From positions 248,001-312,000 of the forward strand of contig NZ_JAHVJQ010000002.1 in NCBI RefSeq assembly GCF_019801145.1: DNA of 64,000 bases, written 5' to 3'. Positions 8,468 to 59,418 of the stretch are shown one piece after another. Numbering within the stretch: the first letter of the stretch is position 1; the number at the start of each line of letters is the position of its first letter. This DNA comes from Leisingera aquaemixtae (lineage in GTDB: Bacteria; Pseudomonadota; Alphaproteobacteria; Rhodobacterales; Rhodobacteraceae). Position numbers and translations under genes: made by a program. The notes below the pieces were generated by a model that was not told the DNA's origin, made no database searches, and was given only the letters and a program-made list of their open reading frames with translations.

Positions 8468-8477
8468 CAGGCCCTAA
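8468..8477 (-). repeat. dispersed motif TTAGRGNCTG, intergenic copy
   Basis: CAGGCCCTAA on the + strand, four bases past the aroC stop and followed by CAAGGAG. It is an exact match to the motif described in the findings. Confidence 0.6.
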
Positions 8478-8528
8478 CAAGGAGAGTTGCCCGAATTTGA
8501 TTCGGATGGCGCCTCTCAGCCTGCACTC

Positions 8529-8945
8529 TTATTCGTGCTCGCCCGCGCATTGGCTGTGGTCGCCCAGCGCAGTCAGCACCTTGCAGCAGCCGCCGTTGCC
8601 GCCGTCGCACAGGTGGCTGATCCGCTCCAGTTCGGACGCCAGCTGCCGCAGCTTGCGGATGCGGTCCCGGACATTGGCCAGCTGGCTGCGGGCAATCCGG
8701 TCGGCCTCGGCGCAATCATCGCCCAGATGCCCGTCCAGCCCCATCAGCGCCTTGATGTCCTCCAGTGAAAACCCGAGATCGCGCGCGTGTTTGATGAAAC
8801 CCAGCGCGTCCATGCCGTCCTGCCCGTAGCGGCGCTGGTTGCCGGCGTTGCGGCCCGGTTCAGGCAATAGGCCGATTTCCTCGTAATAGCGGATGGTGGG
8901 CACCTTGACGCCGGTGGCCTTGGACAGCTGGCCGATGGAAAACAT
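8529..8945 (-). CDS. MerR-family metal-responsive regulator
   Basis: A 138-residue regulator with an N-terminal MerR HTH (MFSIGQLSKATGVKVPTIRYYEEIGLLP), the linking helices, and a cysteine-rich C-terminal metal-binding part. Cysteines occur in GDDCAEAD (start of the dimer helix) and in LCDGGNGGCCKV and SQCAGEHE at the C-terminus, the arrangement of ZntR/CadR/PbrR-type sensors of Zn, Cd or Pb. The ATG at 8945 has GAGGG eight bases upstream; a TTG two codons earlier is possible. It is divergent from a cation transporter with a classic MerR promoter between them, so it very likely activates that gene in response to the metal it exports. Confidence 0.92.
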   Translation of the reverse strand: MFSIGQLSKATGVKVPTIRYYEEIGLLPEPGRNAGNQRRYGQDGMDALGFIKHARDLGFSLEDIKALMGLDGHLGDDCAEADRIARSQLANVRDRIRKLRQLASELERISHLCDGGNGGCCKVLTALGDHSQCAGEHE

Positions 8946-8957
8946 GCGCAAACCCTC

Positions 8958-8988
8958 TTGATGCTCTAGTGACTAGAGGCCCTACATT
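8958..8988 (+). promoter_or_regulatory. MerR-type promoter with operator dyad
   Basis: A -35 box TTGATG (8958-8963) and a -10 box TACATT (8983-8988) are 19 bp apart, the lengthened spacer characteristic of MerR-activated promoters. The spacer begins with a perfect 15-bp dyad, CTCTAGTGACTAGAG (8964-8978), close to the operators of Pb/Cd/Zn-sensing MerR proteins. It reads toward the cation transporter; the start codon lies 31 bases past the -10 box. Confidence 0.9.
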
Positions 8989-9018
8989 GATGTCGAATCA
9001 GGAATGAGGACAAGAGCA

Positions 9019-56591: not shown

Positions 56592-56665
56592 CGCACGGCT
56601 CCCGGGATTGTTTGCAACCCGCTTCGGTGGTAGCCCCGGCGGCAGTTTGATGCAACGGTAAGGCC

Positions 56666-57763
56666 ATGACAAAGACCCTGACAATTCTGGGGCTGGAGAG
56701 CAGCTGTGACGACACCGCTGCCGCCGTGGTGCGGCAGACTGAAGGCGCGCGGCCCGAGGTTCTGTCCTCGGTTGTCTTCGGCCAGACTGAGCTGCACAGC
56801 GCCTTTGGCGGCGTGGTGCCGGAGATTGCCGCCCGCGCCCACGCCGAGAAGCTGGACATCTGCGTCCGCGATGCGCTGTTGGAGGCCGGGCTGAGCCTGA
56901 AGGACATGGATGCGGTGGCCGTCACGGCCGGCCCGGGGCTGATCGGCGGGGTTATGTCAGGGGTGATGTGCGCCAAGGGGATTGCCGCTGCAACCGGCCT
57001 GCCGCTCGTCGGGGTGAACCACCTAGCAGGCCACGCGCTGACACCGCGGCTGACGGATGGGATCGCCTATCCCTACCTGATGCTACTGGTCTCTGGCGGC
57101 CACTGCCAGTACCTGCTGGTGCGCGGGCCGGAGGATTTCACCCGTTTGGGCGGAACTATTGACGACGCGCCGGGCGAGGCCTTTGACAAGACCGCCCGGC
57201 TGCTGGGGCTGCCGCAGCCGGGCGGGCCGTCAGTGCAGGCTGAAGCGGAACAGGGTGATCCCAAGCGCTTCCGCTTTCCCCGTCCCTTGCTGGACCGGCC
57301 GGACTGCAACCTGTCATTCTCGGGGCTGAAGACCGCGCTGATGCGGATGCGCGATCAGATCGTGACGGAAAAAGGCGGCCTCACCCGCCAGGACCGTGCC
57401 GACTTATGTGCAGGGTTTCAGGCTGCTGTGGTTGATACCTTGGCGGAAAAAACCCGCCGCGCCATCCGCCTGTACCTTCAAGAAGAACCGGCACAGCCAA
57501 CGGTCGCTGTTGCCGGAGGTGTGGCAGCAAACACTGCCATTCGCACCGCGTTAGAGACTGTCTGCACCGAGGCCGGCGCCGCCTTTACCGCGCCGCCGCT
57601 GCGGTTGTGCACCGACAATGCCGCAATGATCGCCTATGCCGGGCTGGAGCGGTTCAAGACGGGTGCGCGCGACGGGCTGGACCTGACCGCCCGACCGCGC
57701 TGGCCGCTGGATCAAAGCAGCCCGGCGCTGATCGGGTCAGGCCGCAAGGGAGCCAAAGCATGA
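56666..57763 (+). CDS. tsaD: tRNA N6-adenosine threonylcarbamoyltransferase
   Basis: A 365-residue enzyme that transfers threonylcarbamoyl to A37 of ANN-decoding tRNAs, with TsaB, TsaE and TsaC. The start follows GGTAAGGCC. Fe-binding His residues lie in VNHLAGHAL (about 110-118). [15 protein letters not shown] is the ATP-loop start, ARAHAEKLD the Kae1 motif, [10 protein letters not shown] and [21 protein letters not shown] the following loops, and [11 protein letters not shown] lies near 280. Its stop overlaps the gpsA ATG. Confidence 0.97.
57551..57560 (+). repeat. dispersed motif TTAGRGNCTG, sense copy in tsaD
   Basis: TTA GAG ACT G in frame at codons 296-299 (ALETVC). Confidence 0.6.
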
Positions 57764-58722
57764 GCATTTCGGTACTGGGATCGGGCGCCTTTGGCACCGC
57801 CTTGGCGATTTCGCTGGCCGGCAACGGGCCGGTGACCCTGTGGGCCCGCAACCCGGTTAAGGCCCAGGCGATGCAGGACAGCCGCCGTAACGGGACCCGC
57901 CTGCCTGGTGTGGAGCTGCCAGGGAACCTTGCCATCACTGCGGATATCGCGGACGCCTGCCAATCCGAAGTTCTGCTTCTGGCGGTGCCGATGCAAACGC
58001 TCCGCGGTGTGCTGGAGCAGTACAGCGGACACCTCGCAGGAAAATCGCTCGTTGCATGCTGCAAGGGGATTGAGCTGGAGACCGGGCTAGGCCCGGTTGC
58101 CGTCATCCGTGAAGTTCTGCCGGATGCGCAGGCCGCACTGCTGACCGGGCCGAGCTTCGCTGCTGACATTGCCCGCGGACTGCCAACCGCGCTGACGCTG
58201 GCTTGCAGCGATGCGGAGCTGGGCAAGGAACTGCAGGAGCAGCTGACCACGGCCAATCTGCGCCTGTACCGCACGACGGACACCATAGGCGCGGAAATCG
58301 GCGGCGCCCTGAAAAACGTGATGGCAATTGCCTGCGGTGCCGTGATCGGCGCCGGGCTCGGTGACAGCGCCCGTGCTGCGCTGATGACCCGGGGTTATGC
58401 GGAGATGCAGCGGATGGCGCTGGCAAGCGGCGCCAAGGCGGAAACCCTGGCCGGGCTTTCGGGATTTGGCGACCTGGCGCTGACCTGCACCTCGGATCTC
58501 TCCCGCAATTACCGGCTGGGCCTGTCCATCGGCCGGGGCGAGGAATTCGATCCCAGCATCACCGTGGAAGGTGCCGCCACCGCGCGGGCCGTTGCGGAGC
58601 AGGCCCAGCAGAGGGGGCTGGATATGCCGGTCACGCTCACGGTAACCAATTTAGTAGATCAGCGCTTGACGATCAGCGAGGCAGCGGCACATTTGCTTAA
58701 AAGACCATTAAAAGAGGAATAA
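57760..58722 (+). CDS. gpsA: glycerol-3-phosphate dehydrogenase [NAD(P)+]
   Basis: A 320-residue enzyme reducing dihydroxyacetone phosphate to sn-glycerol-3-phosphate for phospholipids. The NAD(P) loop [17 protein letters not shown] is at residues 4-20; WARN is near 29; the catalytic Lys lies in [32 protein letters not shown] (about 185-216), and [20 protein letters not shown] is near 235. The start (ATGA) couples it to tsaD. It is in the tsaD-gpsA-yciI-EVE run common in Rhodobacterales. Confidence 0.97.
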
Positions 58723-58723
58723 A

Positions 58724-58996
58724 ATGCTCATCGCATTGATCGCCCGCGACAAACCCGGCCATTTGCAGACCCGGCTGGACAACCGTGACGCCCATCTGGC
58801 CTATATCAACGACACCGGCGCCGTGGCGCAGGCAGGCCCGCTGCTGGATCAGGATGGCAATATGGCCGGTTCCCTGGTTATCCTGGACGTCGAGGACATG
58901 GCAGCAGGCGAGGCATGGGCGGCAAACGATCCCTACAACAAGGCCGGCCTTTTTGAAGCTGTCGAACTGATCACCTGGAAAAAGGTCATTGGCTGA
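58724..58996 (+). CDS. YciI-family protein
   Basis: A 90-residue ferredoxin-like alpha/beta protein. The His-Asp pair expected for the family is in NRDAHLAYINDTGAVAQAGPLLDQDG (about residues 23-48) and WAANDPYNKAGLFEAVEL (about 65-82). YciI proteins are possible hydrolases/dehydrochlorinases with unknown substrate. It begins one base after the gpsA stop, and its TGA overlaps the following ATG. Confidence 0.92.
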   Translation: MLIALIARDKPGHLQTRLDNRDAHLAYINDTGAVAQAGPLLDQDGNMAGSLVILDVEDMAAGEAWAANDPYNKAGLFEAVELITWKKVIG

Positions 58997-59418
58997 TGCG
59001 TTACTGGCTGTTCAAATCCGAACCTTCCACCTGGAGCTGGGATAACCAGGCTGCCAAGGGTGCTGCGGGCGAGGAATGGGACGGCGTGCGCAACTACCAG
59101 GCGCGCAACTTCATGCGCGAAATGAAAATTGGCGACCGCGGCTTTTTCTATCATTCGCAGAAAGAGAAATCCGTGGTCGGCATCGTTGAGGTCTGCGCAG
59201 AGGTGCACCCGGACAGCACCACCGAGGACGACCGCTGGGAATGCGTCGACATCAAGGCAGTGCGCCCCTTTGCCAGGCCGGTAAGCCTGGACCAGATCAA
59301 AGCCGATCCGCGTCTGGAGGAAATGGTGCTTGTCAAGAACTCCCGCCTGTCGGTGCAGCCGGTGAGCGAAGCCGAATGGGCCGCCATCTGCGCGCTGGGG
59401 GAGACAGACCCTAGCTGA
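58996..59418 (+). CDS. EVE domain protein
   Basis: A 140-residue PUA-like EVE-domain protein. MRYWLFKSEPSTWSWDNQ, WDGVRNYQARNFMREMKIGDRGFFYHS (about residues 35-62) and VVGIVEVCAE are hallmark segments. EVE domains bind modified bases in nucleic acid and occur near the tRNA-modification gene tsaD here. It has ATGA overlap with yciI. A near copy (CAGACCCTAG, 59405-59414) of the dispersed motif covers its last codons. Confidence 0.93.
   Translation: MRYWLFKSEPSTWSWDNQAAKGAAGEEWDGVRNYQARNFMREMKIGDRGFFYHSQKEKSVVGIVEVCAEVHPDSTTEDDRWECVDIKAVRPFARPVSLDQIKADPRLEEMVLVKNSRLSVQPVSEAEWAAICALGETDPS

Follow-up and report, generated by a model that had tools for sequence, protein, structure and literature searches.

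To our knowledge, only a handful of site systems apart from parS mark out a bacterial chromosome's origin region; ram/RacA and maoS/MaoP are the two compared here. The ram sites have a palindromic consensus, and RacA functions during sporulation; matS, the site of MatP, is likewise palindromic and a different sequence from the one considered here. The present analysis concerns a family of sites built around the 10-mer TTAGRGNCTG, which was noticed as a dispersed repeat in a stretch of DNA of 64,000 nucleotides (G000:C2:248001-312000, that is, contig C2 of genome G000; hereafter the window). The genome comprises 4.88 Mb in 50 contigs, and its closest named relatives are Leisingera, with 93% identity in the queG product and 86% in one plasmid RepB. 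RacA acting on ram sites in Bacillus subtilis (PMC6593407) is, with MatP/matS, among the closest working analogues, Escherichia coli has 23 matS in its 800-kb Ter region and, in MaoP/maoS, an Ori-region system with a single 17-bp site (PMC5023128), and in Caulobacter crescentus the domain-biased sites of ZapT lie mostly within genes in the terminus region, with no consensus motif found (PMC7188993).

Like ram, the present sites are many and dense near the origin, but they are non-palindromic and belong to Alphaproteobacteria. As with matS, recurrence of a single kind of site across several hundred kilobases would define a chromosome domain, although matS lies at the terminus and the present sites lie around parB. 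MaoP/maoS resembles them as a site-specific system of the Ori region, with one maoS in place of the many sites seen here, and ZapT as an alphaproteobacterial, domain-biased set of mostly genic sites, which differs in its terminus location and in having no consensus motif. The origin-proximal neighbourhood is shared with ParB/parS, but parS is a 16-bp palindrome (TGTTTCACGTGAAACA), whereas the motif is unrelated to it, non-palindromic and spread over hundreds of kilobases; nor do the sites follow the genome-wide, dif-oriented layout of KOPS, the sequences of FtsK. Searches of the genome gave no match to MatP (PF06303) and none to DUF413 (PF04219), which we take to be MaoP, E. coli being positive for both among 14 controls. 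With a Noc-type ParB paralogue having sites of its own in view, the domain ParB_N was searched for and matched four times, by the chromosomal ParB, by RepB in repABC on C12 and on C15, and weakly by one protein on C5, with no second strong chromosomal ParB among these matches. Among the matches listed for the open-access literature, judged by title and the start of the abstract and including few subscription papers, no comparable site from Alphaproteobacteria appeared.

Comparison across genomes shows that many chromosomes of the Roseobacter group carry a regional, conserved, DNA-level family of sites around parABS and the origin. In the window, TTAGRGNCTG has nine exact copies, against a mean of 0.38 and a maximum of 3 in 100 dinucleotide shuffles, and all nine copies listed in the original prediction are present. 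Since the motif was read off the same window, the shuffle probability is inflated by selection and the excess in the window is by itself weak evidence; independent support comes from having fixed the motif and then looked for it in other genera. Allowing one mismatch leaves the window unremarkable (17 matches vs 13.2 expected), and the whole genome holds 30 copies against 39 of the reversed (not complemented) pattern, so that TTAGRGNCTG is not an over-represented word of the genome. The over-representation claimed in the original prediction therefore holds regionally, in the window and around parB, and not genome-wide. A genome count at background level, which had been named there as evidence against the motif, is what was obtained, yet such a count is blind to regional enrichment; absence of conservation in related genera, the other outcome named, was not what was found, the motif being both conserved there and clustered near parB. 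In a k-mer comparison, TTAGAGNCTG ranks third among gapped 10-mers in genome G075 and tenth in the own genome, and since the other top k-mers are explained by composition and a tandem repeat, TTAGAGNCTG would not stand out by this test on its own. Words of the ACCGAGACCGAG-type repeat were strongly enriched in the same comparison at G000:C2:250-400 kb.

In the own genome, the strongest match to a chromosome-type ParB lies at C2:342508, two exact parS copies adjoin parAB (C2:339063 and 340974), and the cumulative GC skew of C2 has its minimum at ~310-330 kb; dnaA lies away from parB, at C2:519917. The proteins neighbouring parB resemble what is presumably the usual alphaproteobacterial origin set. 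As the window extends from 94 to 30 kb left of parB, it is close to the inferred origin, proximity being measured throughout relative to parB as a stand-in for oriC. Between 256 and 486 kb of C2 lie 14 of the 30 genome copies of TTAGRGNCTG, and 14 of the 27 copies of the narrower TTAGRGHCTG are found within 150 kb of parB, where 1.66 are expected, an origin-proximal location (relative to parB) that is also a trait of parS. The idea of a terminus function of the ZapT kind was dropped, because the GC-skew minimum, parB and parS place the cluster near the origin. An enterobacterial core of dif gave no match within 3 mismatches near the window, and its best matches on the pieces of C2 and C1 scanned had at least 6 mismatches.

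The fixed motif recurs around parB in other genera. ParB was found in 53 of 61 genomes of the family (the own genome included), with one genome per genus, and 30 other genera were counted, 20 mostly with long contigs around parB and then ten more. Within 150 kb of parB, a limit set after the first clusters had been seen, lie 81 of 207 copies of TTAGRGHCTG in the first 20 genera (14.5 expected) and 23 of 83 in the ten further genera (3.8 expected), giving 104 of 290 copies against ~18.4 expected for all 30. These counts were compiled by hand, with copies bearing G at position 7 left out for part of the first 20 genera, and for G023, G065 and G069 the single contig was assumed to be circular. 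The clearest clusters are those of G075 (19/26 copies, p 7e-17, with positions taken from among the 22 of 29 copies listed and the total of 26 from the control columns of the reversed-pattern comparison) and G072 (15/17, p 3e-15), and further ones occur in G023 (14/28), G033 (10/26) and G029 (7/13); altogether, 13 of the 30 genera reach p<0.05, uncorrected. The reversed pattern has 2 of 27 copies within the same distance in G000, 3/20 in G072, 2/27 in G029 and 2/54 in G075, a pooled 9 of 128 vs 9.2 expected, compared with 55 of 83 copies for the motif in these four genomes. A tree of ParA plus ParB (42 tips, midpoint-rooted, support values not shown) unites all positive genera but G036 and G077, 11 of the 13, in one large clade, in which several non-significant genera are nested. 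This arrangement suggests that the site cluster may be an old feature, later lost in some genera. In G063, nine motif copies occur in 107 kb (C22:215029-321707) on a contig other than that of parB, which may come from the opposite side of its origin.

The 10-mer forms the core of a ~25-bp footprint, with a consensus of roughly A-A/T-T-N2-(g)GCC-tTG-TTAG(A/G)G(A/C)CTG-TTTT. Conserved positions, taken from 66 sites of G075 and G072 with a weight-matrix score >17, are A/T at -11 to -8, (g)GCC at -6 to -3, tG at -1/0, TTAG(A/G)G(A/C)C(T)G at 1-10 and a T-rich segment at 11-14. Autocorrelation of the site profile peaks at shifts of 10-12 bp, about one helical turn. Of 156 copies collected at queG loci and in origin regions, 79 were kept after similar flanks had been removed, and in these the flank bias persists. 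Free refinement by expectation maximization drifted to 216 sites and was therefore replaced by a matrix trained without Leisingera sequences, on 24 distinct exact sites from 121 and then on 44 sites; the training genera include G075 and G072, and the congeners G010 and G004 stand outside the training set. At scores >17, the own genome has 15 sites within the 300 kb surrounding parB (1 on the reversed sequence) and 0 within 260 kb of contig C1. The counts in other genomes are 14 in G010 (2 reversed) and 11 in G004 (0 reversed) in 200 kb each, 33 in 260 kb near the origin of G075 (0 reversed) as against 0 in 140 kb far away (1 reversed), and 33 in 280 kb of G072 (1 reversed). The matrix sites are without orientation bias, 19/33 and 15/33 lying on the + strand. 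At >14, the density ranges from one site per 5.8 kb (G075) to one per 14 kb (own genome); elsewhere, C1 has 1 site vs 2 reversed, the far region of G075 1 vs 5 and C2:0-192.5 kb 8 vs 1, and owing to this last value depletion outside the domain is not claimed. In the window, 14 sites score >13, vs 1 on the reversed sequence, and consist of the nine exact copies, three near copies and two more, at 19008 and 32821. Four near copies had been proposed originally, and the matrix recovered those at 13674, 38898 and 43901 but not the one at 59405.

At the two genes studied in depth, selection acts on the DNA itself, rare TTA and ATA codons being kept for the site across genera. The site in the hydantoinase gene was compared over 67 homologues: its Leu is encoded by TTA in 42 of 66 cases, as against 150 of 4807 for the other Leu positions of the gene, and none of the 64 other Leu columns has as high a share; the runner-up column (24/67, index 138) is the location of a predicted site of G075, at 260122. 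At the queG site, TTA encodes 34 of 56 Leu and ATA 13 of 27 Ile, while elsewhere these codons make up 3.1% and 5.7%; in 80 named loci surrounding queG (1.61 Mb), the motif occurs 84 times and the control 21 times. In tsaD, the sense site falls at the same codon in three genera, G075 and G072 included, and a further antisense site at index 68-71 is common to these two. The window site at 31459..31468 has a flank similar to that of a copy in another genus (G075:271177), and a copy near 787 kb of G010 has a flank that, by eye, is unlike that of any own site.

Table 1. Sites of the family in the window, with strand, gene context and weight-matrix score (positions counted from the first nucleotide of the window)
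Feature	Position	Strand	Context	Score
Core site TTAGGGCCTG	8468..8477	-	just behind chorismate synthase gene (7195-8463)	17.2
Core site TTAGAGCCTG, left arm of inverted pair	12311..12320	-	between two gene ends	20.6
Core site TTAGAGCCTG, right arm of inverted pair	12339..12348	+		21.1
Weaker site TTAGAGCCGA	13674..13683	-	inside gene LysR-like by eye	14.6
Weaker site GCAGTGTCTG	19008..19017	-		14.3
Core site TTAGAGACTG	27365..27374	+	antisense, start of ATP-grasp/CoA ligase gene	18.5
Core site TTAGAGACTG	29749..29758	+	in frame in AraC-type regulator gene (28738-29874)	23.4
Core site TTAGAGACTG	31459..31468	-	in frame in ORF 31145-31876	23.2
Weaker site ATAGAGCCGG	32821..32830	-		15.2
Near copy TTAGAGCCTA	38898..38907	-		15.7
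Core site TTAGAGTCTG	39585..39594	-	in frame in hydantoinase gene	20.9
Core site TTAGGGTCTG	41649..41658	-	in frame in queG	25.6
Near copy TTAGAGAATG	43901..43910	-		13.8
Core site TTAGAGACTG	57551..57560	+	in frame in tsaD, codon index 295	17.4

The inverted pair at 12311-12348 is a perfect 13-bp inverted repeat with a 12-bp loop, situated between convergent genes; in G055, two copies likewise lie on opposite strands, 18 bp apart (C3:62134 and 62152). An Rfam scan of the window yielded two riboswitches above gathering scores (FMN at 3176-3323, +; TPP at 7092-7183, -) and one tRNA, and no known RNA element at the sites.

By analogy with RacA/ram and MatP/matS, the sites probably recruit a putative, dedicated DNA-binding protein that marks the origin domain and aids its compaction, tethering or segregation. 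Sites of a size suited to protein binding, ~25 bp, are scattered at about one per 6-14 kb over ~200-300 kb around parABS and the origin; the putative protein would be recruited to them and, once bound, would mark the domain and may help to compact, tether or segregate it, and the 10-12-bp repeat in the footprint suggests side-by-side binding on one face of the helix. Among the functions suggested in the original prediction, the putative one of a chromosome-organising sequence is the best supported.

Several observations weigh against such an origin-domain role. No significant cluster was found in 17 of the 30 genera (for example G055 with 0/7 copies, G059 with 0/9 and G065 with 1/14), and several of these are nested among positive ones in the ParA plus ParB tree. 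Within 10 kb on each side of parB, there is no excess in 40 genera (10 motif, 14 control), which means that the sites are not packed at parS. In the region C2:0-192.5 kb, on the same contig as the window, the matrix gives 7 hits above 17 (0 reversed), and five of these form a strong second cluster at C2:24575-40361, ~300 kb from parB. At the lower score of >14, the origin region of G075 has 45 sites vs 15 on the reversed control, and the exact copies in G072 lean to one strand, with 3/17 forward (p 0.013). The third-base entropy over eight codons is not extreme at the two gene sites (rank 38/665 and 133/338), so that the signal lies in specific codons and not in wobble conservation overall. 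For the second cluster, an origin as a relocated piece of the origin domain was considered and rejected, ten open reading frames (ORFs) from it being without match in the four origin regions compared.

Four sites of the second cluster lie in or beside genes of the LigB, decarboxylase, FAA-hydrolase and HpcH/HpaI families, an aromatic-degradation group, and such strong sites in or beside a catabolic operon would also fit operators of a global transcription regulator whose targets happen to be near the origin. In the same direction point the 15 of 67 sites that are intergenic and a footprint whose size and 10-12-bp repeat are like the operators of winged-helix response regulators. The remaining sites, however, comprise 33 in sense frame 0 and 19 antisense, according to crude gene calls in six genomes, three of them congeners, in which at least two window sites are mislabelled (the AraC-type gene at 29749 was missed and the opposite ORF was chosen at 31459). 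Many sites thus lie deep within genes, on either strand, the housekeeping gene tsaD included, and for this reason the regulator site of the original prediction fits less well; moreover, several genera carry sites in the same region, and the additional sites vary from one genus to another. Regulation is therefore regarded as an unlikely explanation. An OmpR-type response regulator encoded in the window was considered as the binder and set aside as uninformative, since it has a match in 21 of 21 family genomes, whether or not they have a cluster; its gene follows a MarR-like gene (the two spanning 17294-18505), and the pair is PetP/PetR-like.

The plasmids widen the question to other replicons. 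In the own genome, copies are found within or next to repABC on two plasmid contigs, and a site lies ~280 bp before the repA open frame on C12 and likewise before repA of a Phaeobacter plasmid. At scores >14, the rep loci examined in named Rhodobacterales plasmids (13 loci, 102.7 kb) contain 17 sites vs 3 reversed, and distant DNA of two plasmids (99.8 kb) contains 3 (2 reversed); at >17, 4 sites (1 reversed) are left in the rep loci and 0 in distant plasmid DNA. This signal is suggestive only, because 3 of the 13 loci are empty, two loci contain 8 of the 17 sites and several loci are homologous. That one protein, bound in tandem copies to the non-palindromic site, gathers the origins of all replicons, RepABC plasmids included, is a tentative and rather doubtful extension. 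The excess at rep loci and the sites upstream of repA would suit sites that mark the origin DNA of every replicon for initiation control or titration, and not for folding. We consider this quite improbable, given the few rep-locus sites left at >17, their uneven distribution, and chromosomal sites that are spread over 200-300 kb and are not densest beside parB.

A signal in translation or in the mRNA, given by the rare Leu codon TTA, would account for the sense frame shared by five of the six exact in-gene copies in the window and by 33 of the 52 in-gene sites (on the same crude gene calls). It is nevertheless very unlikely in view of the antisense and intergenic sites (19 and 15 of 67), of the ATA (Ile) found in place of TTA in queG, where most of the remaining site is preserved, of the conserved A/T and GCC flanks upstream, and of other reading frames that are in some cases closed by stop codons. 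Two further candidates of the original prediction, a methyltransferase recognition site and an FtsK-type polarity sequence, find a point in their favour in the strand lean of the exact copies in G072, but the sites are regional rather than genome-wide, the footprint is long and graded, and the matrix sites are without strand bias, so the polarity sequence is not borne out. Clustering near the origin is not what a methylation target would lead one to expect; both candidates are most improbable. Chance or composition, for which a motif chosen after viewing the window, a genome count below that of the reversed control and an unexceptional one-mismatch count could be cited, is already refuted by the clustering of the fixed motif at parB in independent genera (p down to 7e-17), by a reversed pattern of the same composition that does not cluster and by the conservation of codons.

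A conserved site under codon-level selection is a direct bait for its putative binding protein. In addition, Roseobacters have one chromosome and often several RepABC plasmids, and in these bacteria it can be asked whether the replicons share one origin-organising factor.

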